Shown: positions 1,801 through 32,003 of the stretch, piece after piece
How positions within the stretch are numbered: the stretch's first letter is position 1
Layout of the letters: the number at the start of each line of letters is the position of its first letter
Source: Prolixibacteraceae bacterium
GTDB lineage: Bacteria > Bacteroidota > Bacteroidia > Bacteroidales > Prolixibacteraceae
Length of the DNA: 32,810 nucleotides
Assembly: GCA_947475715.1 (NCBI GenBank)
Contig: CANJNY010000046.1
Location: 1 to 32,810, forward strand
Reading direction: 5' to 3'
Translations under genes and position numbers: made by a program
The notes under the pieces: model-generated
Databases searched by the model: none
Seen by the model: only the letters and a program-made list of their open reading frames with translations
What the model was told of the DNA's origin: nothing

Positions 1801-3339
1801 TTACTTAATAACCACTGACTGATCAGGGTCGCACACCACCCGGAAGCCGACTCCCTTGATATCGGAGTACCACCAGATACTTTTAGGTTGTTGAGGATCG
1901 GTCTTAAGCCAATCGGCAGTCCGGGTAGATCCCCTTGCAGCAGAGCGGAAGTCTTTTGCATCATAGGCGTAGTTTCCGCCCCGGATGACATGTTCCTCTC
2001 CTGTTTCGGGTCCTTTCGGATCCTTGACAGAGGTGCTGGTTTTGGAATAGGCGTTATCGGCATAATAATCGGAACAGTATTCCAGAACATTACCCATCAT
2101 ATTTTTTAAACCAAATGGATTTGCTTTCACAAACCCGGGTTCTTGAGTCTTACCTGTCGAGTTAAGTGCATACACCACATATCTGCTTATATTGGAGGTG
2201 TCGGCCCCAAATATTTTACTGCGGAACCCTTCGGAAGATAAACGTTTTGGATCACCCGGAAAGAAATATGGGGTTTCACTTCCTGCCCTACAGGCATATT
2301 CCCATTCAGCCTCAGTAGGCAGGCGGTAATTTTTTCCTGTCACTTTTGAAAGCCACTGACAATAAATCGTTGCCGCATAATGGGTCAGGGTTATCGCGGG
2401 GCGTTTGCCACTACCCCATCCCTGTTCAGGAATTCCGAACGGAGGTGTAGGTCCGGTAACCGCATCGGGAGAATTGGCATTACGAGCCATAACCATCTTT
2501 GGATCGACGCGCCCCTCCGACATAGTCGAAGCAAAGAAGGTCCAGAATTCGTCCCACGAAACTTCAACCTCTCCCATAAAAAATGGGGAAACAGTAACCT
2601 GTCGAATAGGTCCCTCATCACTTTTCCGGAAAGGCTCTTTTTCAGGGCTTCCCATTTTAAACATTCCCCCTTTTACCGCAACCATATTAAAGGAGACGGA
2701 ACTATTGGGAATGAATTCCTTGAAGTTTTCAAAGGTGGTCACTTTTGCTGGTGCCGTATATTTATTTTGCGAAGCTCCTCCGGAAACCGGTACCCCCTTC
2801 ATTTTTTCATGTTTATAGTTGGGATTATAATGACCCACATCAAGATGGCAATTAATGCATTGTAATTCAAGTTTTACTGCATTTTTCTCATAGTAAAGAT
2901 GGGCCGTTCCCCCTTCGGCAGAGAGCCCTTTGGAAAACAGATTCTGGTGACATTTAACGCATGACTCGTTATACACTATTTTTACGGCATGTTCCAGAAG
3001 CCTTTTATTTTCCCAGTTAAACGATTTCTTATCCTTGAAATAGTAGCCATAAAGATCGTTCAATCCTGCTTTTGCCTTTATGAGTAAATAGCGATTATCC
3101 TCTTTGGGAGGTAAGTGGCAATCCACACAATGGACCCTCACCCCGCTTAGGTTATAAAAATGAGTAGATTTTTTCCATGAAGCATCTGCATCAGGATGAA
3201 TATGACACGATTGACAATATTCGTCGGTGGAGGTAACTTTGACTGCTTTATTTGTAATCAACAACACGATAACATAGGTTGTCATTCCAATAAAAAAAAC
3301 AAGCCACGACCACCTGGGTATTTTAAGCTTTTTGATCAT
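1801..3339 (-). CDS. NapC/NrfH-like tetraheme cytochrome fused to a SUMF1/FGE-like domain
   Basis: A 512-residue fusion. Residues 11-29 form one membrane anchor. Four CxxCH haem c sites follow: CQSCH (42-46), CVDCH (71-75), CVKCH (127-131) and CINCH (161-165). Their spacing and the anchor match NapC/NirT/NrfH quinol-oxidising tetrahaem cytochromes. Residues about 216-505 form a SUMF1 (formylglycine-generating-enzyme/EgtB/PvdO superfamily) domain, with GGMFKMGS, LPTEAEWEYACRAG, GNVLEYCSDYY, a C-terminal RGGNY (453-457) and GFRVV. True FGEs carry two catalytic cysteines just after RGGS; here that segment (AYDAKDFRSAARG) has none, so sulfatase-activating chemistry is unlikely. Inference: quinol electrons enter the cytochrome module and the SUMF1 module binds a partner or substrate in the periplasm. 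It is first of a two-gene unit with the Gfo/Idh/MocA lipoprotein. Confidence 0.88.
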   Translation of the reverse strand: MIKKLKIPRWSWLVFFIGMTTYVIVLLITNKAVKVTSTDEYCQSCHIHPDADASWKKSTHFYNLSGVRVHCVDCHLPPKEDNRYLLIKAKAGLNDLYGYYFKDKKSFNWENKRLLEHAVKIVYNESCVKCHQNLFSKGLSAEGGTAHLYYEKNAVKLELQCINCHLDVGHYNPNYKHEKMKGVPVSGGASQNKYTAPAKVTTFENFKEFIPNSSVSFNMVAVKGGMFKMGSPEKEPFRKSDEGPIRQVTVSPFFMGEVEVSWDEFWTFFASTMSEGRVDPKMVMARNANSPDAVTGPTPPFGIPEQGWGSGKRPAITLTHYAATIYCQWLSKVTGKNYRLPTEAEWEYACRAGSETPYFFPGDPKRLSSEGFRSKIFGADTSNISRYVVYALNSTGKTQEPGFVKANPFGLKNMMGNVLEYCSDYYADNAYSKTSTSVKDPKGPETGEEHVIRGGNYAYDAKDFRSAARGSTRTADWLKTDPQQPKSIWWYSDIKGVGFRVVCDPDQSVVIK

Positions 3340-3400: not shown

Positions 3401-3628
3401 GCGAAAAAAAGCGTTTACGTGCACGACATCAGAACGGATATATTCTGTTTATTTCTTCTCTGATATAATCACTTTTCTCAGTTTTTATTTATGAGAAAAT
3501 AAAGATTTCGCCTTAATTATTATATACTTATGTGGATAAAAAAATCGCCACCAAAACACCATCCCACACTTGCGGGACCAAATAAGCACCAAATCTATTC
3601 GTCAGATGTATTTTAGTGTTTTAATCCG

Positions 3629-3893
3629 TCAGGTGATGGATAGTGGCATTTTATTTTTGATCATTAAGGAGATATCAAAATACTTCACCTTCCCCTCTTG
3701 GTCGATATTCAGCTGCAACGGATGATAAGGCTTGAATTCAAGAGTCAATCCGATCTTATTTGTGGCATAATTTATTGTGATTGGAAACGATCTCTTTTAA
3801 AGATTCACCGATTGACCATATTCGAGCGGAAATTCCAGATGTTTGGATTTGGGGTTTGCAAAGAAAAACGCTAGACCGCTCCTCTATCAGCCA
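3629..3893 (-). pseudogene. Decayed 3' end of an unidentified gene (possibly a carbohydrate-active enzyme)
   Basis: Reading leftwards, one frame carries protein-like sequence interrupted by a TAA near 3797-3799. The upstream part includes GLAFFFANPKSKHLEFPLEYG. The downstream part includes ITINYATNKIGLTLEFKPYH, then PLQLNIDQEGKVKYFDIS, and ends at a TGA at 3629-3631. More stops (TGA, TAG) lie just upstream, near 3882-3890. The alternating hydrophobic pattern and the LEFKPYHPLQL...DQEGKV..FDIS ending resemble the C-terminal beta-sandwich end of some Bacteroidota glycoside hydrolases; this is remembered resemblance, not a search result. No intact start or upstream domain remains. Decay may extend further upstream, to about 4150. 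Confidence 0.4.
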
Positions 3894-4211
3894 TGGTCGC
3901 CTAGGTATGTAATGAACCGTATTTGTTTCATATAAACTATTTAAATACAGCTGCCACGTGTATCGACACCACCCCGGTTTCGAAATTAAAAGGGTCGCAC
4001 TTCACTTACAAGGTCAGAACTTATAACCATCTCTGTGGGTATCTCCAATCCATCAGCAAAGTCAGGATATTAAGGTATTATGAATATAAAGAAAATCAGG
4101 TTCAATGGCTCAATAGCCCCACTTTAATTCAGTTCCAGTTCGTTATTGTAAAATTATAATTCTTATTGAATTTTTAATTATCCAAAACCCCAGCCGGGAA
4201 AATACTGAAAT

Positions 4212-4239
4212 AAAAAAAGCCCTGAATCTAATCAGAGCT
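4212..4239 (-). terminator. Rho-independent terminator of the pLGIC operon
   Basis: Read leftwards, AGCTCTGA (from 4239) pairs with TCAGGGCT (to 4218) with one mismatch and a six-base loop, immediately followed by seven T residues. It lies about 40 bases past the stop codon of the last channel gene at 4280. Confidence 0.75.
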
Positions 4240-4279
4240 CTTTATCATATTTCATAAGTATTAATGAGCAGGCTAAATC

Positions 4280-5320
4280 TTAAAGAGCAAAAAGTATTGA
4301 TGCAACAATAAATACCAGGGGGAAAATAAACCTGACCCACAAAATAATACGTTTTGACAGGAGAAGTTTCTGCTGATCTTGTGTATTGTATAGATAAAAT
4401 GTCATCAGCGAAAGGGCCATCGAGATAGCAATGAGGAAGTAACAGGTATAAAATATCTTACTCACATAAATGATGTAACCGATTTCGGGAAGGTCATTGT
4501 TTATAGATGATTGAAATGCTATTGCGCTTAATAACGAAGTGACAGTAAGTGCTGCCGCAATATCGATCTTTTCCGCCGGGAGATAAAACACAAAATAGAC
4601 GAGCAATAAAATGATCATCAAGGGAATGATAAACTTGCTGATATAAGGAAGCAGCGACCTGTCTATAAATACTGAAAGGGTCAACCGACCATAGATTTCC
4701 TCCGCAGGGGCCTGATCATAACCAAAATCACTGTTGTATTTCCCCTCTCCTTCAACAAGCTCTGTTTTATAAATATGTGAACTGCTTTGATTATTATTCG
4801 CCAGAATATCATTTGACAAGCACCAGAATTTCCTCTCCTGCTTCGATTTAATATAAGATACTGAATCCGGTACAATCTTCAACAATTTGTTTTCCAGAAG
4901 AATATTCTCAATCACAATATCCATCCGCTGTTTATCGAATGGATACATCTTAAAATCGGGCGAGAAATAGAAATCACCCTGATGAAATCCTGTATAGTAG
5001 AATTTATGATTCCCAAGATCCTTCATGTCGATTATTTCACCTTTAAAAGCGCCTGTTGAAACGGCTATGCCATTCACATATTCGATGTTAAGGATATCAG
5101 TATTGGAGTGCCCGGTAACTGTTGAATCATTCTCAAAGATTGTCCACCAGTAGAACTCGGCATGAAACTTTGAATTCTTAAAATCGGGTGAGATATTTTT
5201 TAAAAACATACCGAATTTCAGGTCGATAGGTTTTTTTTCCTGACCCGATACTTCAGCGCCATAAAAAGCCAATATCACTACAATAAGAAATGTGCTGATG
5301 GAAGATTTAAAAAATTTCAT
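4280..5320 (-). CDS. Pentameric ligand-gated ion channel subunit (Cys-loop receptor homologue), second copy
   Basis: A 346-residue GLIC/ELIC-type channel subunit. A Sec signal (about 1-26, cleavage near VSGQ) precedes a beta-rich extracellular domain (about 27-220). This domain contains the Pro-loop DFKMYPFDKQRMDIVIEN (122-139), the bacterial counterpart of the Cys-loop, without cysteines. Four membrane helices follow: M1 (about 221-247, with the conserved Pro233), M2 (about 253-274), M3 (about 280-310) and M4 (about 326-346). Aligned from the M2-M3 proline (Pro278), M2 has Asp253 at -2', Ala at 2', Thr261 at 6' and Leu264 at 9'. An acidic residue at -2' and Leu at 9' suggest a cation-selective pore with a normal hydrophobic gate. 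It lies 44 bases after the first channel gene and ends the three-gene unit. The ligand is unknown; GLIC is proton-gated and ELIC amine-gated. Confidence 0.88.
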   Translation of the reverse strand: MKFFKSSISTFLIVVILAFYGAEVSGQEKKPIDLKFGMFLKNISPDFKNSKFHAEFYWWTIFENDSTVTGHSNTDILNIEYVNGIAVSTGAFKGEIIDMKDLGNHKFYYTGFHQGDFYFSPDFKMYPFDKQRMDIVIENILLENKLLKIVPDSVSYIKSKQERKFWCLSNDILANNNQSSSHIYKTELVEGEGKYNSDFGYDQAPAEEIYGRLTLSVFIDRSLLPYISKFIIPLMIILLLVYFVFYLPAEKIDIAAALTVTSLLSAIAFQSSINNDLPEIGYIIYVSKIFYTCYFLIAISMALSLMTFYLYNTQDQQKLLLSKRIILWVRFIFPLVFIVASILFAL

Positions 5321-5364
5321 TCTTTTAGAGTTAGTTAATAAGGTTAATATCTATTAAATTTGTT

Positions 5365-6498
5365 CTACAACCAGACCAACAATGCAAGCAAAATTACAAA
5401 TCCCACGATCTGTGCAGTAAAGCTCTTTTTATCCAGCCGAACCATCCGGGCTATGCTCTCGGGCGATTCCCTGTCCATTTTTGTATTGATATAAATTATC
5501 TGTAGCAGTGTTAGCACAATAAAAGCATAAGCCGCGACATAGATTTGATCCATCAATACCAGGGAGGGGCACTCCGGAATTGCATCGAGAGCTGATTGAT
5601 GCAGAAAAACAGTGGTCAACAGAGCAGTCGCGGGCATTGCTGTCCTCACTTCGATGAAAGTTGGATTCATTAGAAGTGCGATCCAGTTAGTCATCAAGAC
5701 GATCAATAATGGCAAAAGCATTTTCCAGAGAAAAAAATTCACATAACGATCAAGTTGTAACGAGAATTTAAGACTCGAATATTTTGAAGCATCACTCACA
5801 CCAACTTCACCAAAATTAGTACCATAATCGTGGAGATATGAGCTTACCCCTAACCCCTTTATTTTCCATCCCGGGATCAGAATAGAGCTGCTATATCCGG
5901 TAGATACACTATCGGGAATATAAACCACGTCATCGACAACATCGGTACTATTTTCGATATAAAGTGCAAGCTCTTGTTTATCAAGAGGGTATCTGCTCAG
6001 ATCAAAAGCCTGAAAGAATCGTCCATTAACCTCCAATACCTGATATTTGCTCCCATCGGGCAAAATCTTTGCAGAATCATATAGGGCCGCTTTGACCAAG
6101 CCCCAGTTCTCCACCACATTTGGAAACTCCAGAGATTTAACAGGATCTGCATCTCCTTTCCATCTTAACCAGACATAAAGGCTCATGTTAAAAGTATTTG
6201 AACGCAGATCAAGATCATAAACATTTACGCCATAAATTCCGACAGCTACTTTTACAGCTTTTGCAGGCGGAGAGTCCATTTTAACCAGGGTGCCGGCGCT
6301 ATTTTTGATTGTAAATTGTGGTTTATCACCATTTATACGATTCGGGAATGGTAATCCAAAGGAATCAATAATTCCGGTTGATAGCACTAAAATAGCTATC
6401 ATGGTTAAACTTCTTAATGGTTTAACCAATGTTCCGGCAGTGATTGCTTGAAACATCTTCCAGCCTGATTTTCTGGAGTGCATATGGGAATTGTTCAT
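5365..6498 (-). CDS. Pentameric ligand-gated ion channel subunit, first copy
   Basis: A 377-residue pLGIC subunit. The hydrophobic signal lies at about 29-48, unusually far in; a start at Met15 would give a more ordinary signal peptide. The extracellular domain carries YDLDLRSNTFNMSLYVWLRW (94-113), typical of the ligand-binding beta-sandwich, and the Pro-loop FDLSRYPLDKQELALYIEN (165-183). M1 is about 251-278 (Pro263), M2 about 284-304, M3 about 312-337, M4 about 361-377. M2 aligns without gaps to GLIC from Glu283 (-2') to Pro308: Ala287 at 2', Thr291 at 6', Leu294 at 9'. Glu at -2' matches GLIC Glu222 and predicts cation selectivity. The gene lies 16 bases after the TorF-like gene and 44 before a second, clearly diverged channel gene, so a hetero-oligomer is possible. 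Confidence 0.9.
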   Translation of the reverse strand: MNNSHMHSRKSGWKMFQAITAGTLVKPLRSLTMIAILVLSTGIIDSFGLPFPNRINGDKPQFTIKNSAGTLVKMDSPPAKAVKVAVGIYGVNVYDLDLRSNTFNMSLYVWLRWKGDADPVKSLEFPNVVENWGLVKAALYDSAKILPDGSKYQVLEVNGRFFQAFDLSRYPLDKQELALYIENSTDVVDDVVYIPDSVSTGYSSSILIPGWKIKGLGVSSYLHDYGTNFGEVGVSDASKYSSLKFSLQLDRYVNFFLWKMLLPLLIVLMTNWIALLMNPTFIEVRTAMPATALLTTVFLHQSALDAIPECPSLVLMDQIYVAAYAFIVLTLLQIIYINTKMDRESPESIARMVRLDKKSFTAQIVGFVILLALLVWL

Positions 6499-6514
6499 AG
6501 CTGTTTTTCAGATT

Positions 6515-7231
6515 TTATTTGGATGAGAAGGTCAGTCCAAACACAAAATAGGTTTTTTCAGTCTGGGGATTATCAATTACAGAAGCAAAAACAGGCACCT
6601 TAAACTTCCCGGAAAATTTAATATCATATTTCACCTTGAAACCAAGGTTCATCACACCCGCTTTATCGCCGTATGAGCTCGCCTGAGGAGTCATTCCCAC
6701 AGTAAAATCCATAGGGAAAAGTTTGTGTGTATTAAAGCGGTAACCTGCTTCGAGGTATGTGGCATCATCATTATAGAAAAACCTGTTATAACTTGCATAA
6801 AGTGGAAATTTATCCCCGCCATCATAGGCCAGAGTTACTTCAGCATAGCTTCCGCCGCTATTAAACGGCACATTATAATATCCACCATGTTGTGTTCCAT
6901 CCTCATCCTCGAATGATTGATTGTAATCGAACACTGAAACTGAAAATTGTTTTATTGAATATTTAGCCCAAAGGTCATATTCAGAATAGCCGTTACTAAC
7001 CCCAAAACTACCCCAATAGCCCACTTCAAGATTCTTGTAAGTTCCAACAACTGTAGGTTGAAAATGAAAACTTTTGCTTTCATCAAAACCAATTCCATTT
7101 TCGATACCGCGCCACAGATAGCGGTTAACCAGATCAGCTCCTAACTTGATACCATTTTCCTCCTGAGAGAATAAGTTGCTGCTTTGAAGCAATAGCATTG
7201 CTGCAAAAATAAGTTTGAATGTTTTACTCAT
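6515..7231 (-). CDS. TorF-like (Gcw_chp family) putative outer-membrane beta-barrel
   Basis: A 238-residue protein with a Sec signal (cleavage after about residue 22, NLFSQ). It then runs as alternating aromatic/polar beta-strands and ends in a strand closing FVFGLTFSSK, as expected for an outer-membrane barrel. The early motif DLVNRYLWRGI (33-43) and the strand pattern match the TorF/Gcw_chp putative porin family, in which a similar Y-x-(W/F)-RG motif follows the signal. Its role is unproven; a small pore or outer-membrane scaffold is a fair guess. It is first gene of the unit with the two channel subunits. This suggests a path in which a solute or ion crosses the outer membrane to reach inner-membrane channels; that link is inference from position only. 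Confidence 0.75.
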   Translation of the reverse strand: MSKTFKLIFAAMLLLQSSNLFSQEENGIKLGADLVNRYLWRGIENGIGFDESKSFHFQPTVVGTYKNLEVGYWGSFGVSNGYSEYDLWAKYSIKQFSVSVFDYNQSFEDEDGTQHGGYYNVPFNSGGSYAEVTLAYDGGDKFPLYASYNRFFYNDDATYLEAGYRFNTHKLFPMDFTVGMTPQASSYGDKAGVMNLGFKVKYDIKFSGKFKVPVFASVIDNPQTEKTYFVFGLTFSSK

Positions 7232-7593
7232 TATTTTTTCTTATGTTAATTATAATAATTATAAATAAAGGTTGCAAAATTGTTAAAAAAAATTGAAAAT
7301 AAAAAAATAATTGAACGGTTTATTACAAAAATAATTTCAATATTTATACTTGTTAGCTCAAGTGACAATTATAAGTTATTCATATTTAAATTTATTCCGA
7401 CGGCAAGAAGAGAGGTAACCTGATAAAAACAAATTTTACCAATATAATTGACCGAGGGTTCATAATTATTCGTAATTTTAAAATTCATAAAATGGGATAT
7501 ATAAGCTCATTATTTGAGGCTAAAATGAGGTTTGAGAGGAGAGATAAAGATCTGTCTTTTCATAGCCATTTAATAATTCAGAACGGATCTAAT
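7232..7593. other. AT-rich divergent intergenic region
   Basis: This region separates the leftward TorF/channel unit from the rightward adaptor gene and should hold both promoters. It is very rich in A and T, with the weak leftward -7 candidate at 7326-7333 and a one-mismatch rightward candidate TATACTTG at 7345-7352. The in-frame extension of the adaptor gene back to 7492 lies here and is probably not translated. Confidence 0.45.
7326..7333 (-). promoter_or_regulatory. Candidate -7 element (TATTTTTG) for the TorF/pLGIC operon
   Basis: Read leftwards it is TATTTTTG, fitting TAnnTTTG, 95 bases upstream of the start at 7231. The surrounding DNA is extremely AT-rich, which makes chance matches likely. 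No clear -33 element is seen. Confidence 0.3.
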
Positions 7594-25688: not shown

Positions 25689-26930
25689 TTACCGATCAAT
25701 TCTGAAAGGCTTAATATCCAGACTCATTTTATTTTCATAGAGCAGTTCGCTGAGTAATTTTCCGGTTGCAGGAGCCAGGGTAATGCCCATCATCGAATGA
25801 CCGGTTCCCACAAATACATTTTGAAATGAAGGAATAGGTCCAATAAATGGCAATCCATCGAAAGAACAAGGTCTATGTCCCTGCCAGATTTGTTCCTGTT
25901 CTATTTTCAGATCCACTTCCGATGGATAAAATTGTCCGATAGCCTGTATAATTTGCTTAATTCGCATCTGTCTGATTTTCAATCCGCCATATCCCAGTTC
26001 CATGCCACCTCCGAATTGTGTCCGGTTGTTCCCAAACGGAGTTACGGCAACATTTGCGTCGGCCAGCAAAGCAGGATAATGGATTGGGCGAGCCGTTTGT
26101 ACTTTAAAGCTATACCCCTTGCCCGGTTGAACATCCAGATTGATCCTAAGTTGTTTCAGGATTTGAGTACTCCAGAATCCAGCGGTAATTACCAGCTGAT
26201 CGAATTGAAAGCTTCCAGATTGGGTTTCAAGCGAAATTGCTTTTTGTCCTGAAGTAATTACTTTTTGCAAAGCACAATTTCGTATCAGAGTAACTCCCGA
26301 TTTTTCCAGTCCCGAAATTAAAGATTTCATCAGTGTTGAAGGATCCAAATGAGCATCCGATTTGTAATGAACCCCTCCGGAGACCCTGGGTTTGGCATCG
26401 AATTCCATACGCTGAATCTCAGTGGCCGATAACGTTGAAACCTCCAAACCGGCATGACGGGCAATTTCAGCCTCTTCCAACAGTTCATCTCCAATTTTGG
26501 CTGATTGGTACAGCATCAGCAAACCTTTGTGCCACAATGGAAAATCAAGCTCTCCGGACTCTTTGAGGTCGGAATACAGATCTTTACTAAAAAGACTCAA
26601 CTCTTTTAAGACCGGAATCGATTTTTCAACATGACTTGCCGAAGCTACCCCGGCAAAACGCATATACCACCGTATCAAATCGTTGTCGGGAGCCATTCGG
26701 ATAGCTAAAGGTGATGTTGGATTAAACATGTTTTTAATTCCTTTGACTAACATGCCCGGTGATGCCAGCGGCACCACATGACTGGGGACGATAAGTCCGG
26801 CATTTCCAAAAGAGCAACCATCAGTGAGATCACCACGATCAATCACTGTAATTTCAGCCCCTTTTTTGCTGAGATACCAGGCAGTAAACAGACCAATTAC
26901 CCCTCCGCCAACAATTACGATCCTGCTCAT
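25689..26930 (-). CDS. FAD-dependent D-amino-acid/hydroxy-D-proline dehydrogenase (DadA-like)
   Basis: A 413-residue flavoprotein of the DAO/DadA family. The FAD-binding motif IVGGGVIGLFTAWYLSKKG is at the N-terminus, with TVIDRGDLTDGCSFGNAGLI following. The C-terminal substrate-domain markers are RPCSFDGLPFIGPIP and GTGHSMMGITLAPATGKL. As last gene of the operon with 4-hydroxyproline epimerase, its likely substrate is cis-4-hydroxy-D-proline, oxidised to pyrroline-4-hydroxy-2-carboxylate (the LhpB/HpoX-type step), with electrons passed to the respiratory chain rather than O2. DadA acting on ordinary D-amino acids cannot be excluded by sequence alone; the operon makes the hydroxyproline role much the better reading. 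It lies 12 bases after the epimerase stop. Confidence 0.88.
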   Translation of the reverse strand: MSRIVIVGGGVIGLFTAWYLSKKGAEITVIDRGDLTDGCSFGNAGLIVPSHVVPLASPGMLVKGIKNMFNPTSPLAIRMAPDNDLIRWYMRFAGVASASHVEKSIPVLKELSLFSKDLYSDLKESGELDFPLWHKGLLMLYQSAKIGDELLEEAEIARHAGLEVSTLSATEIQRMEFDAKPRVSGGVHYKSDAHLDPSTLMKSLISGLEKSGVTLIRNCALQKVITSGQKAISLETQSGSFQFDQLVITAGFWSTQILKQLRINLDVQPGKGYSFKVQTARPIHYPALLADANVAVTPFGNNRTQFGGGMELGYGGLKIRQMRIKQIIQAIGQFYPSEVDLKIEQEQIWQGHRPCSFDGLPFIGPIPSFQNVFVGTGHSMMGITLAPATGKLLSELLYENKMSLDIKPFRIDR

Positions 26931-26942
26931 AGTCTTTATTAA

Positions 26943-27947
26943 TTAGATCACTTGAAAACCAAAAGCATACGGATCATCCTGATCATCAATAAAAATGTTA
27001 TTAAACCCGGTAATTTTTGCCCATCCTTCAATGCTAGGAATAATTGCGGCATATTCCCCAACAACGGTAAGATCTTCAACGCGCCCTAAAAACTGACTCC
27101 CAATGATACTTTCATGCAGAAATTTATCCCCTTTTTGTAGTTTGCCTCGCGCAGTTAATTGTGCCATCCGGGCTGATGTTCCGGTGCCACATGGCGAGCG
27201 GTCAATGGCTTTGTCACCGTAAAAAACAGCATTTCTTCCATCGGCTTCAGATGACAATGTTGCACCTGTCCACTCGATGTGACTAACGCCTGCAATCTGC
27301 GGATTTTCGGGATGCTGAAACTTATACTTGTCATTGATTAAAGTACGAAGTGGACGGCTGAAGGCAATCAATTCATCGGCCGTATACTTTTCCAATCCTT
27401 CAAAATTTTCCTGAGGATCGACAATGGCATAAAAATTCCCTCCATAAGCCACATCAAACTTTAGTTTTCCCAAATGCGGAGACTCAACTTCCATATCTTT
27501 TCCGGCCAGAAATGATGGCACGTTGGTTAGTTTTACCGAACTCACTTTTTTTCCGTTCATCTGATATTCTACCTTAATCAATCCGGCAGGGGCCTCCACA
27601 AGGAGAAAACCGGGATTTTTCGGAGTGATCAACCCTTGCTCTATGACAACAGTAACAGTACCAATGGTTCCATGTCCGCACATAGGCAAACAACCGCTTG
27701 TTTCGATAAACAAAATTCCCATGTCGTTGGCCGGATCGCTGGGTGGAAAAAGGATGCTTCCCGACATCATATCATGTCCGCGGGGTTCATACATCAATCC
27801 TCTCCGGATCCAGTCAAATTCTTTCATAAAATGGAGCCGACGTTCGAACATGTTCTTTCCTTCCAGAAATGGCGCGCCGCCGGCAATTACACGCACAGGA
27901 TTTCCACAGGTATGAGCATCCACACAAAAAAATGTTTTTGAAGCCAT
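26943..27947 (-). CDS. 4-hydroxyproline 2-epimerase (proline racemase family)
   Basis: A 334-residue cofactor-free epimerase converting trans-4-hydroxy-L-proline to cis-4-hydroxy-D-proline. Both catalytic cysteines are present: Cys90 in MCGHGTIG and Cys253 in DRSPCGTGTSAR. This two-Cys arrangement separates epimerases/racemases from trans-3-hydroxyproline dehydratases, which carry Thr at the second site. The N-terminus DAHTCGNPVRVIAGG is also family-typical. Proline racemase is the alternative, but linkage with the deaminase and semialdehyde dehydrogenase favours hydroxyproline. It lies just four bases after the aldehyde dehydrogenase stop, within a tightly packed operon. Confidence 0.92.
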   Translation of the reverse strand: MASKTFFCVDAHTCGNPVRVIAGGAPFLEGKNMFERRLHFMKEFDWIRRGLMYEPRGHDMMSGSILFPPSDPANDMGILFIETSGCLPMCGHGTIGTVTVVIEQGLITPKNPGFLLVEAPAGLIKVEYQMNGKKVSSVKLTNVPSFLAGKDMEVESPHLGKLKFDVAYGGNFYAIVDPQENFEGLEKYTADELIAFSRPLRTLINDKYKFQHPENPQIAGVSHIEWTGATLSSEADGRNAVFYGDKAIDRSPCGTGTSARMAQLTARGKLQKGDKFLHESIIGSQFLGRVEDLTVVGEYAAIIPSIEGWAKITGFNNIFIDDQDDPYAFGFQVI

Positions 27948-27951
27948 GATC

Positions 27952-29541
27952 TTAAGTTTTAATCGGTTCTTTTGTTAGCTGACCATCAATCCGACGCCAA
28001 ATATTGAGCGGATTGGCATCTTTCAATTCGTCGGGTAGATAAGCGTTGGGTGCATCCTGAAACGCCACCGGCCGAACGAAACGTTTGATGGCATCCACAC
28101 CTACAGAGGTAAACCGGGTATCAGTTGTTGCCGGGAATGGCCCTCCATGCTGCATCGAATAACAGACTTCAACACCGGTTGGAACTCCATTAAAAATCAA
28201 TCGTCCAACTACCTGCTGAAGGATTTCAATTTGACTCCTGAAAGTTGTAAGATCGTCTGAAGTTCCAATCACCGAAGCGGTTAATTGTCCACGGAATGTT
28301 TTCAAAACTTCCGTCAATTCTTCTACTCCCTCAGCTTCAATCAGCAGGGAGAAAGGTCCAAAAATTTCTTCTGCCAAACCTGGCTTCGCAATGAAATCGT
28401 TTCCTGAGACCTTTACAACAAGCGGTCTTCCGCGTAATTCACCGGCTTTTAAATCCGATTCAGCTAACTTTTCAATAACAGGATCCTCCAGTAAGTCTTT
28501 GGTAATCCGCACAAAAGAGCTGCTGATGTTGCGGTGCAGCATCGGCTCCGGAAGAAGTTTCCGGATTTGTACAGAAAGTTCAGTTTTAAATGCTTCTGCT
28601 TCAGGAGATCTCAATACAATAAGCACGCCAGGATTGGTGCAAAATTGTCCGGCACCCAGATTAAGCGATCCGGCGATCGTTGCAGCCAGTTTAGCAGGGT
28701 CTTCTTTCAACTTTTCAGGAAGAAGCATTACCGGATTCACGCTTCCCATTTCGGCAAAAACAGGAATAGGTTCTTCTCGTTTCTGTGCCAGTTTATACAA
28801 ACTTTTCCCTCCGGAAAATGAACCGGTGAAAGCCACCGATTTCACTTCCGGATGAAGTACGAGTAACTGTCCAACCGACAAATCGATGTCGTTGAGCGAG
28901 GAGAAAACCCCATCGGGCATATCTGTCTTTTGTGCTGCCCGGATAATGGCTCCCGCAACCAGTTCGTTGGTTCCGGCATGATAAGGATGAACTTTTACAA
29001 TGACCGGATTCCCGGCGGCGAGTGCTGAAGTTGTATCTCCACCAGCCGTTGAAAATGCCAGTGGGAAATTGCTTGCGGTAAAGACAACCACCGGTCCTAT
29101 GGGCTGCACCATTTTCCGGATATCAGGACGAGCCACTGGTTTACGCTCCGGCATTGCAGGATCAATGGATGACTCAACCCATGATCCATCTTCCAAAACT
29201 GAGGCAAATAGCCGCAACTGACCCACTGTACGGCCGCGCTCACCGGTGATCCTCCCTTCGGGCAAGCCCGACTCAGCGCAGGCTCGTTCAATAAGAAGAG
29301 GACCCAGAAGTTCAATTTCCTCCGCGATGGCCCGCAAAAAAGCAGCTTTTTCTTTTCCACTCTTTTTTCTGAATACTTTATAGGCATTTACAGCTTTGTT
29401 AACCGCCAAATCTGTTTCCTGTTTAGTTGCCTGAACAAATAACTCAGGTAATTCCTGAAGATTAGCCGGACTAAAAGTTTGAAAACTATTCAATCCTTCT
29501 GCTTTCAGCTCATACCCGATAAAGTTTTTTCCGTGAATCAT
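27952..29541 (-). CDS. Alpha-ketoglutaric semialdehyde dehydrogenase (2,5-dioxovalerate dehydrogenase)
   Basis: A 529-residue NAD(P)-dependent aldehyde dehydrogenase of the KGSADH type. NAD-binding and active-site segments are GPVVVFTASNFPLAFSTAGG, KVHPYHAGTNE, VAFTGSFSGGKSLY, the general-base FAEMGSVNPV and the nucleophile GAGQFCTNPG. The length, somewhat over the roughly 480-500 of common ALDHs, and the GQFCTNPG form match enzymes converting 2,5-dioxopentanoate to alpha-ketoglutarate. It would carry out the last step of hydroxyproline breakdown, feeding the TCA cycle. It lies 10 bases downstream of the DapA-like gene and four bases upstream of the epimerase. Confidence 0.9.
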   Translation of the reverse strand: MIHGKNFIGYELKAEGLNSFQTFSPANLQELPELFVQATKQETDLAVNKAVNAYKVFRKKSGKEKAAFLRAIAEEIELLGPLLIERACAESGLPEGRITGERGRTVGQLRLFASVLEDGSWVESSIDPAMPERKPVARPDIRKMVQPIGPVVVFTASNFPLAFSTAGGDTTSALAAGNPVIVKVHPYHAGTNELVAGAIIRAAQKTDMPDGVFSSLNDIDLSVGQLLVLHPEVKSVAFTGSFSGGKSLYKLAQKREEPIPVFAEMGSVNPVMLLPEKLKEDPAKLAATIAGSLNLGAGQFCTNPGVLIVLRSPEAEAFKTELSVQIRKLLPEPMLHRNISSSFVRITKDLLEDPVIEKLAESDLKAGELRGRPLVVKVSGNDFIAKPGLAEEIFGPFSLLIEAEGVEELTEVLKTFRGQLTASVIGTSDDLTTFRSQIEILQQVVGRLIFNGVPTGVEVCYSMQHGGPFPATTDTRFTSVGVDAIKRFVRPVAFQDAPNAYLPDELKDANPLNIWRRIDGQLTKEPIKT

Positions 29542-29551
29542 GGTGAATCTC

Positions 29552-30466
29552 TTACAGATTTAAATAATCAGGTAACTCCGGACGTGAAGCGAGCGCCGTG
29601 ATTAAAATATTCAGGATTCGTTCGCGTTCGGCACCAATCAACGCAAGACGCGGTGGACGTACATTTTCATTACCAAGTCCAGTGAGTGTTTCAGCCAATT
29701 TAATGTTCTGCACCAGTTTTGTTGAAACGTCCAATTCAAGAACTGGCAAAAACCAGCGGTAAATTTTCAGGGCTTCCTGAATTTTTCCGGCTTTAATCAG
29801 GCGATAGATCGCAACTGTTTCGCGTGGGAAAGCGCAAACCAAACCAGCCACCCAGCCATCGGCACCCATCAGCAGACTTTCCATTCCAAGGGTATCCACA
29901 CCGGTCAAAACTGCAATGCGTTCGCCAAATTCATTTTTCATTCGGGTGATATTCGAAATGTCGCGTGTCGATTCTTTCACAGCCTGAATAGTTGGCAAAT
30001 CTTCCAACTGATGGAACATTTCGGGAGAAATCCAAATTTTGTAATCAGCAGGATTGTTGTACAAAATAATTGGTAAATCGGTCGCTTGCGCAACAACTCT
30101 GAGGAAAGCAACCGTTTCGCGATCGTCTGAAGTATATCGCATCGGGGGCAAAAGCATCAGTCCATCGGCACCATTATCGCGGGCACGTATAGCAGCCTCC
30201 ACAGCCGCCTTGGTTGATTGTTCAGCCACGTTCATTAAAACCGGCACTTGACGGGCAACTACACTAACTGTGTGTATTAGCAGCGCATCTTTTTCTTCCT
30301 GAAGTAAAGTACTTGCCTCTCCCAAAGACCCGCCCAAAATAATACCATCCACTCCGGCATCGAGTTGAGCTCTAAGATTAAGGTCAAAGGCGTCAAAATC
30401 CAATTGATCATCGTCAGTGAATTTTGTTGTGACTGCGGGGAAAACCCCTTTCCATTCGAATTTCAT
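29552..30466 (-). CDS. DapA-family lyase, probable pyrroline-4-hydroxy-2-carboxylate deaminase
   Basis: A 304-residue (beta/alpha)8 lyase of the dihydrodipicolinate synthase/N-acetylneuraminate lyase family. The Schiff-base Lys164 is in QAVKEST, Tyr136 in LYNNPADY, and the carboxylate-binding loop is GGSLGEAS (45-52). In operons with 4-hydroxyproline epimerase, family members deaminate pyrroline-4-hydroxy-2-carboxylate to alpha-ketoglutarate semialdehyde (LhpC type). It is the first gene of the four-gene operon; a -7 match lies 69 bases upstream. Sequence alone cannot exclude another keto-acid substrate, and lysine biosynthetic DapA is made unlikely by the context. Confidence 0.9.
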   Translation of the reverse strand: MKFEWKGVFPAVTTKFTDDDQLDFDAFDLNLRAQLDAGVDGIILGGSLGEASTLLQEEKDALLIHTVSVVARQVPVLMNVAEQSTKAAVEAAIRARDNGADGLMLLPPMRYTSDDRETVAFLRVVAQATDLPIILYNNPADYKIWISPEMFHQLEDLPTIQAVKESTRDISNITRMKNEFGERIAVLTGVDTLGMESLLMGADGWVAGLVCAFPRETVAIYRLIKAGKIQEALKIYRWFLPVLELDVSTKLVQNIKLAETLTGLGNENVRPPRLALIGAERERILNILITALASRPELPDYLNL

Positions 30467-30534
30467 TATTTCAACTATTTGATGTTATAAAATTCCCAAT
30501 ATTTGTACTTAGGATTTAATCATCGCTTATTCTG

Positions 30535-30542
30535 CAAAATTA
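30535..30542 (-). promoter_or_regulatory. Candidate -7 element (TAATTTTG) for the hydroxyproline operon
   Basis: Read leftwards it is TAATTTTG, matching TAnnTTTG, 69-76 bases upstream of the DapA-like start. It lies in the 151-base gap after the aminopeptidase gene. No clear -33 match. No regulator gene lies nearby. Confidence 0.4.
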
Positions 30543-30617
30543 TTTAGAATCAGTCTATATAAACACCCTGATATTAAACTAAAGATGCAAGATGAAGAGC
30601 TTACCGTTTAAGATAGA

Positions 30618-32003
30618 CTAATAATTCCTTATTGACTCCACCTCTTCAATCGTTTTGGGTTTTTCTTTTCCAAGACGACGATAACCGTTTTCAGTGACAA
30701 GAAAATTTTCTTCGTTTCGGATTCCGCCAAAGTTCCTGAATTTTTCAATTTCAGTCCAGTTTAAAAATTCATTAAATTTTCCTTCTGCCTTCCATTTATC
30801 AATTAATTCGGGAATAAAATAGATACCAGGCTCAATAGTGAAAACGTGACCCGGCTGAAGCTCCTTGGCAAATCTTAATGATTTAAGTCCAAATTGAGTA
30901 CTTTTAGGTTCACCGTTATACCCAACCCAAACTTCGCCCAGATCTTCCATGTCGTGTACGTCCAGACCCATCATATGCCCTGTTCCACAAGGGAAGAATA
31001 AGGCATGTGCCCCGACGGCAACGGCTTCATTTTCATCTCCTTTCATAAGTCCTAATTGTTTCATCGAATTGGTCAATGAAAGACATGCAGCCAAATGAAC
31101 CTCCTTAAACGGAATACCCGGAGCAATGGTTTTGACTGCTATTTCGTGCGCCATAAGGCTTGCCTGATAGATCTCTTTCTGAATAGTGGTAAATTTTTTG
31201 CTTACCGGAAAGGTACTTGAAAGATCACCCGCATAATGCAATTGCGATTCGGCACCTGCATCCACAAGAAATAAATCTCCTTCCTTCAGCAAGTTATGAT
31301 GTGAATGATTATGCAGTGTTTGTCCGTTAATGGTGGCTATAATCGGGAAGGAAATATTACAATCCTGCTCCAAGGCAACTTCATAAACCCTGGCCGCTAT
31401 TTGTGCCTCTATCATTCCTGGACGCGCCATTTTTATAGCAGCAACGTGCATATCCACCGATAGGTCCACTGCCTTCTCAATTTCGGTTATTTCTTCAACC
31501 GATTTGATTTCACGCTGACTTACAACACCTTTCACCAGAGCCAAAGAAGCCAGACCATTGATTTGATCAGGTGAGAGATTGAGCAAAGATTGAAGTTTGA
31601 GTTTGTTTTCGGCACGATAGGGAGGTAGAAAATGGATTTTTCTACCCGCATTTCCGGCTTGTTTCAGAAACCCAGATAAACCGGAAACCGGCATTGATTC
31701 AGAAATTCCTGATTGAAGGGCACGTTCCATAATGGTTGGCTGAGGGCCCATCCAGACAATGTCATCTATGGTATAATCATTACCAAAAATAATCTGGCGC
31801 TGATTATCAACATCAATTATTGCAGCGATTGACGGAAAGTCAATACCAAAATAATATAAAAAGGAGCTGTCCTGCCTGAAATGAAAGGTGTTATCGGTAT
31901 AATTCATGGGGGATTCATCATTACCCAGCAACAGGATTACTCCTGAACCCATCTTGTTACAAAGAACCTCTCTTCTTTGTGAATAAACGTCAGTTTTAAA
32001 CAT
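30618..32003 (-). CDS. Xaa-Pro aminopeptidase (M24B, aminopeptidase P)
   Basis: A 461-residue dinuclear-metal peptidase that removes an N-terminal residue followed by proline. The N-terminal creatinase-like domain covers about 1-170. The C-terminal pita-bread domain has all five metal ligands: Asp248 and Asp260 (VDAGAESQLHYAGDLS), His343 (GTGHMMGLDVHD), Glu391 (TIEPGIYF) and Glu431 (GGIRNEENFLV). No signal peptide is seen, so it is cytoplasmic. Collagen-type peptides are rich in X-Pro and X-Hyp bonds. Its position directly upstream of the hydroxyproline operon, same strand, suggests it frees imino acids for that pathway; the 151-base gap suggests a separate promoter is possible. Confidence 0.93.
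   Translation of the reverse strand: MFKTDVYSQRREVLCNKMGSGVILLLGNDESPMNYTDNTFHFRQDSSFLYYFGIDFPSIAAIIDVDNQRQIIFGNDYTIDDIVWMGPQPTIMERALQSGISESMPVSGLSGFLKQAGNAGRKIHFLPPYRAENKLKLQSLLNLSPDQINGLASLALVKGVVSQREIKSVEEITEIEKAVDLSVDMHVAAIKMARPGMIEAQIAARVYEVALEQDCNISFPIIATINGQTLHNHSHHNLLKEGDLFLVDAGAESQLHYAGDLSSTFPVSKKFTTIQKEIYQASLMAHEIAVKTIAPGIPFKEVHLAACLSLTNSMKQLGLMKGDENEAVAVGAHALFFPCGTGHMMGLDVHDMEDLGEVWVGYNGEPKSTQFGLKSLRFAKELQPGHVFTIEPGIYFIPELIDKWKAEGKFNEFLNWTEIEKFRNFGGIRNEENFLVTENGYRRLGKEKPKTIEEVESIRNY

Follow-up and report, generated by a model that had tools for sequence, protein, structure and literature searches.

Among the described bacterial pentameric ligand-gated ion channels (pLGICs), GLIC of Gloeobacter (glr4197) is encoded by a single gene and is proton-gated. 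Members of the family are marked by a Pro-loop of the form YPxD, an arginine before the first membrane helix (pre-M1), a proline in M1 and another between M2 and M3, and, in the prime numbering of the pore, an acidic ring at -2' is tied to cation selectivity. In the accessible part of the survey by Tasneem et al. (2004; PMC549065), bacterial ART-LGICs are described as sporadic in spread and laterally transferred, fusions with Cache and PBP-I domains and operons with PBP-II proteins are recorded, and homopentamers are inferred from the finding that the majority of genomes hold just one member. No co-encoded or heteromeric bacterial pLGIC subunits were found in the part of the literature covered by our search, which leaves most subscription journals outside. 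Here we analysed a stretch of 32,810 nucleotides (the window), which is the entire contig C46 (CANJNY010000046.1) of the genome of a Prolixibacteraceae bacterium (phylum Bacteroidota; GCA_947475715.1), and in which two diverged pLGIC genes, A and B, follow a gene for a probable outer-membrane protein, O, in a likely operon. This locus would share with the surveyed ART-LGICs the traits of sporadic spread, lateral transfer, solute-sensing neighbours or fusions and inferred homopentamers; it differs in uniting two members with an outer-membrane-type protein, an arrangement absent from the accessible part of that survey. The reading that we consider reasonably probable is that two pLGICs of separate lineages stand behind a resident O, likely in one transcript, and that each most likely forms a homopentamer. 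Its observed support consists of the homology and predicted fold of A and B, the gene order, the lack of conservation in the searched genomes and the existence of solo relatives.

The three genes lie on the minus strand and are read leftward, each from an ATG, in the order O (6515-7231; 238 aa), A (5365-6498; a GLIC-like subunit of 377 aa) and B (4280-5320; a subunit of a separate lineage, 346 aa), with 16 bases between O and A and 44 bases between A and B. These coordinates agree with those of an earlier interpretation made without database searches (the sequence-only reading), and homology, fold and spacing bear out its view that a likely operon joins a gene for an outer-membrane-type protein to two diverged pLGIC genes. 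A and B are pLGICs by similarities well outside what chance would give. The NCBIfam model TIGR00860 matched both below its curated cut-off (E 3.9e-14 for A and 1.9e-9 for B), and comparison with solved structures gave GLIC (E about 8e-13) and a GLIC-GABA-A chimera (E 4.4e-19) for A, and 4yeu (E 1.9e-10), GLIC (E about 8e-8) and the 6fl9 group, also among the top matches, for B; we take 4yeu to be an ELIC-GLIC chimera and 6fl9 to be sTeLIC. AlphaFold2 models built from alignments of 25 rows (A) and 24 rows (B) predicted a beta-rich (beta-sandwich) domain and four C-terminal helices in both proteins, with a mean predicted local distance difference test score (pLDDT) of 83 for A and 73 for B and a predicted template modelling score of 0.68 and 0.61, respectively. 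Foldseek returned 5osb_C, a GLIC chimera, as the first match of A (E 1.3e-20; template modelling score 0.70 by target and 0.59 by query length) and 6zgk_A, GLIC itself, as that of B (E 3.1e-15; 0.76 by target and 0.69 by query length).

The family marks that the sequence-only reading had pointed out, namely the Pro-loops, the M1 proline and the four helices, are all present in both proteins: the Pro-loop is YPLDKQ in A (P171) and YPFDKQ in B (P127), and the M1 proline is P263 in A and P233 in B. The pre-M1 arginine (R251 in A, R221 in B) and the M2-M3 proline (P308 in A, P278 in B) are likewise in place. Since by alignment the residue at pore position -2' is acidic in both (Glu283 in A, Asp253 in B), A and B would be cation channels, and the loop-C-like motifs HDYGTNFG of A and KYNSDFG of B presumably lie in loop C. 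Residues 80 to 374 of A align with GLIC, and the likeness covers the fold, the Pro-loop, the four helices and the acidic -2' residue; it is limited by an identity of about 20% and by the tandem of unlike genes in the window. The best solved-structure sequence matches of B, 4yeu and the 6fl9 group, link it to ELIC and sTeLIC, from which it differs by an insert of its own at approximately residues 157-203, which is common to the B relatives, stands where the A lineage has the PGW motif and has a pLDDT below 50 in the model. A and B are new members of a known family, and it is the arrangement that is unusual.

Judging from the spacing, O, A and B are probably one transcript, read from the promoter of O. 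A hairpin scan of the window gave no minus-strand terminator-like hairpin in the O-A and A-B gaps and one 3' of B (4214-4243, minus strand; 12 pairs, 4 of them G-C, and a T-rich tail). The single terminator proposed by the sequence-only reading thus stands insofar as this hairpin follows B, but the same scan marked further minus-strand sites inside B (4541-4556) and farther on (3561-3578), and the number of terminator-like sites (4 found, 2.9 +/- 1.7 in shuffled sequence) is not above that of shuffles, so that the hairpin counts as weak evidence. The best sigma-70-like promoter match upstream of O (7258-7286, minus strand; 11/12) is likewise a lead only, the 16 matches found being not above chance (16.7 +/- 3.8 in shuffles). 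A search with NF033918 found A and B and no other pLGIC in the window. N-terminal hydrophobic stretches, putative signals, are visible in O, A and B.

O, the first gene of the unit, probably encodes an outer-membrane beta-barrel protein of a remote TorF/Gcw_chp type. The label TorF-like given to it earlier suits its family better than O itself: at E up to 0.5, the window protein matched none of the Pfam and NCBIfam models, but among 22 family members scanned (window O and 21 of its 29 homologues) 12 matched TIGR02001, the TorF putative porin model (best 7.8e-11), and 8 matched PF09694, Gcw_chp (best 9.8e-9). A related solved structure for O was searched for and none was found. Matches to O were obtained in 45 of the 61 genomes searched, the genome of the window included, which shows that the O family is common in relatives without channels.

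The distribution of the channels is different from that of O. Neither A nor B was found in any of 17 congeners (completeness 64-99%), and matches to both were obtained in 2 of the 61 genomes, namely that of the window and G029, where the match is a 713-aa multidomain pLGIC. In surveys with a 36-row profile, in which 5 candidates per genome were scored in most rows, a pLGIC was found in 29 of 395 genomes of the phylum and in 11 of 393 genomes of the order, that of the window included in both; two pLGICs occurred in 5 of the 29 and 3 of the 11, and in the two-pLGIC genomes other than our own the genes lie either on separate contigs or some 640 kb from each other. Loci carrying a pLGIC were compared in sets of 82 and 12, that is, 94 with the window included; some genomes contributed more than one locus, and some loci are truncated where the contig stops (the channel at L214, for example, ends 122 bases from the edge). 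The set of 82 omits short duplicate copies of places already included and loci fetched for O (L001, L002, L031-L058 except L054, L056 and L057, L079-L130, L140-L161 and L168-L186), and the set of 12 likewise omits L202-L213. Two intact pLGIC genes stand in tandem at 2 of the 94 loci, the window and L162, two pieces of one broken channel gene at L199 not being counted as a pair. A adjoins B only in the window, no O-like gene was found at the 93 further loci, and A was found beside B relatives at none of four loci, two of which (L060 and L131) are near a contig end. The three-gene order, whose conservation in relatives the sequence-only reading had made decisive for its proposal, was found in none of them as far as searched. 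Plasmid carriage was rejected, as B had no match in 72,556 plasmid records and A only matches of 23-28% in 10 records, and so was viral carriage, no relative of A or B being found in viral contigs. A UPF0114 protein was considered as a partner of A and dropped, as it occurs at one locus only (L063:7388-7933, plus strand; YqhA-like, directly upstream of an A relative). Clustering of neighbours was also tried, but many of the clusters consisted of frames that overlap the channel genes themselves, so no conclusion about a recurrent neighbour was drawn.

In addition, A and B are only 21-22% identical and belong to separate lineages. In a tree of 43 rows, which carries a long-branch warning, A pairs with a gene from a metagenome-assembled genome of the Chromatiaceae (60% identity; support 97/93) within a set of 10 that holds Desulfamplus genes and genes of the same-phylum family f43 (99/93), and B falls far from A in a set of 3 with genes of G061 and G462 (100/100), on a long branch to the B group (2.97); the closest kin of B among the tree rows, at up to 54% identity, are genes of the families f38 and f48. 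Each type also occurs alone. A B relative is the only pLGIC found in G061, G462 and G264 (the G264 copy being a fragment), an A relative is the only one found in G269, G344, G265, G446 and G154, and close to distant A relatives are the only ones found in G464, G466, G469, G472 and G479; every first-look candidate was scored in these genomes, some of which are incomplete (G446 80%, G462 85%, G344 88%). At L217, from a genome in which 5 of 30 candidates were scored, a full-length B relative (55%) lies between opposite-strand open reading frames of at least 110 aa and looks monocistronic. Judged by aligned columns, neither A nor B is unusually departed from the residues fixed in its solo relatives: window A keeps all 60 columns that do not vary among 13 A relatives. 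Window B differs in 18 of the 133 columns that are constant in the 3 other full-length B relatives, and the same count gives 18/133 for L131, 27/142 for L059 and 23/138 for L217. In two f48 genomes an acyltransferase-like gene follows the B relative instead. As a side observation, an overlapping gene with a match to HGSNAT_cat comes after the B relatives at L131:3219-4969 and L060:1-1009.

The sister-species genome G005, of the same genus, has the order of the window (GFO-type oxidoreductase gene, cytochrome-FGE gene, O at 84% identity, HlyD-type gene, YidD gene and Znu genes) and has no channel gene between O and the cytochrome gene. Homology between the two runs through O to 6496, the last base of the ATG of A, and resumes at 3751, so that the difference of 2,744 bases (3752-6495, minus strand) holds B and all of A but its ATG; no direct repeat at the ends of this stretch was reported. 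Just past the junction lies a decayed coding remnant common to G005 (GLTLEF...VKYFDIS; 3663-3751, minus strand). Given that the G005 bases CTGAAAAACAGCTATG are in frame with this remnant, an insertion in the window seems at least as likely as a loss in G005. Between its O and HlyD-type genes G005 also has an ATP-binding cassette (ABC) transporter unit, which the window does not have. By eye these genes (L109:10830-14621, minus strand) look like those of a polyamine transporter whose permease and binding protein share a single 616-aa frame. A polyamine link to O was rejected: the G005 genes read as PotABCD, but a search for Pot genes at six further O-homologue loci (L110-L115) gave a single hit, in L110, where PotA matched a different ABC ATPase, and in the window the same search picked up only the ZnuC gene.

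A tandem of unlike pLGICs independent of the window pair was found in G468, the genome of the Anaerolineae locus L008. At L162:6084-9652 (minus strand), the first gene encodes a 734-aa pLGIC that has a Cache-like region, and about 50 bases separate it from the second gene, for a 440-aa pLGIC that has no such region; the two proteins are 26% identical over 378 columns. The N-terminal region of the 734-aa protein matched dCache_1 below the cut-off (E 6.8e-8). The 440-aa protein was matched in 14 of 298 genomes of the class, G468 included, and no tandem intact pLGIC pair was found in 15 stretches fetched from the other matching genomes. Cache-pLGIC fusions as such are already recorded in the accessible part of the survey by Tasneem et al. 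(2004; PMC549065). Besides, multidomain pLGICs of mostly about 680-760 aa were seen at L077:5723-7861, L136-L139, L219, L220, L221, L223 and L224 (the stop-to-stop frame at L136 is 1,074 aa), with sub-threshold dCache_1 in 3 of the 4 scanned (L077, L136, L137 and L139). Frames of 1,323-1,399 aa at L191:2023-5991, L194:5880-10076 and L197:4990-9180, from two genomes of the same class as G468 (G641 twice, and G701), are triple fusions of dCache_1 (above the cut-off), a pLGIC core and a C-terminal solute-binding domain, SBP_bac_5 (E about 1e-55).

Because the pair is not conserved, the lineages are separate, solo relatives exist and the fixed residues are kept, A and B probably each form a homopentamer, and the pair resembles two self-sufficient channels that have come together more than it does a conserved receptor of two parts. 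In the mechanism that we propose, A and B would have been gathered behind the resident O by lateral transfer or insertion, or left after a loss in the sister species, and are now probably read from the promoter of O as one transcript. O would lie in the outer membrane, where it may admit small solutes to the periplasm, and A and B would reach the inner membrane by export, their beta-sandwich domains facing the periplasm, each as its own homopentamer with a cation-type pore opened by small periplasmic solutes. Several points weigh against this account. Pfam, whose channel families PF02931 and PF02932 the sequence-only reading had named as a check, had no match to A with the limit relaxed to E 10 and matched B only through PF02932, below threshold (E 0.0075), a miss that is taken as a limit of sensitivity. 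The total GC of B (0.368) is the lowest among the 21 window genes measured, and second pLGIC genes may be undercounted in the phylum and order surveys because of the few candidates scored per genome. A and B have pore rings in common (an acidic residue at -2', Ala 2', Thr 6' and Leu 9'; the last is Leu294 in A and Leu264 in B), and their 44-base spacing is also expected of co-assembling subunits. At least two pLGICs occur in 13 of the 18 genomes behind the A-relative loci (in tandem in one, G468), so that A relatives often have a possible mate elsewhere, and the second, independent tandem at L162 implies that pairing may be selected now and then.

Co-assembly of A and B as a hetero-pentamer like the nicotinic and GABA-A receptors, with O bringing the ligand, would draw on the adjoining genes, on the pore and loop-C signatures kept in both, on the Anaerolineae tandem and on the frequency of more than one pLGIC in relatives' genomes; we regard it as unlikely, given the low identity and separate lineages of A and B, the occurrence of each type alone, the B relative that looks monocistronic, the absence of the pair and of the three-gene order from all other loci and genomes searched, and the fact that window A and B depart no more than usual from their solo relatives. 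For the same reasons (order unconserved, lineages separate, solo genes elsewhere) the dedicated two-subunit receptor with a porin partner that had been suggested for this locus is not supported. What the locus has in common with a hetero-pentamer of the nicotinic acetylcholine receptor type is that two unlike subunits are co-encoded, and what sets it apart is that the pair is not kept across relatives; joint genomic location is not itself required of the animal hetero-pentameric receptors. The wider claim that bacteria make hetero-pentameric channels from co-encoded subunits of separate lineages, with A and B as one case and the Cache-bearing and Cache-less pair of L162 as an independent one, finds little credence with us. 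A tandem duplication within one genome followed by divergence has adjacency in its favour and is extremely improbable, since the tree, despite its long-branch warning, groups A, at high support, with genes of Chromatiaceae, Desulfamplus and f43, and B with those of f38 and f48, and each is far closer to its best kin than to the other. We also doubt that A and B are a transient or decaying acquisition that does little for its host: the 17 congeners and the syntenic G005 locus are without them and a decayed coding remnant adjoins them, but both frames are intact, the family-invariant residues are kept and the GC content at third codon positions (0.40 in A, 0.415 in B) is within the range of 19 other window genes (0.35-0.46), all of which indicates that A and B are neither freshly arrived nor visibly decaying. 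A recent foreign composition was rejected on the same ordinary third-position values, although the total GC of B is so low. Finally, the assembly to which the window belongs has 315 contigs and an estimated contamination of 3.2%, but an assembly or binning artefact is very improbable with both flanks matching G005 in order, O at 84% protein identity and the genes intact. The natural tandem pairs of the window and of an Anaerolineae genome allow the homopentamer assumption to be put to the test with two small genes in laboratory hosts: mixed channels would mean that hetero-assembly is not confined to animals, and their absence would make the pair a clear example of two channels that work independently though probably transcribed together.

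Elsewhere in the window, the gene at 1801-3339 (minus strand) encodes a NapC/NirT-type multihaem cytochrome fused to an FGE-sulfatase domain, with 84% identity in G005. Farther off, at 25689-32003 (minus strand), a run of genes read by eye as amino-acid oxidase-, proline/hydroxyproline racemase-, aldehyde dehydrogenase-, DapA-type and aminopeptidase-like perhaps serves the breakdown of hydroxyproline.

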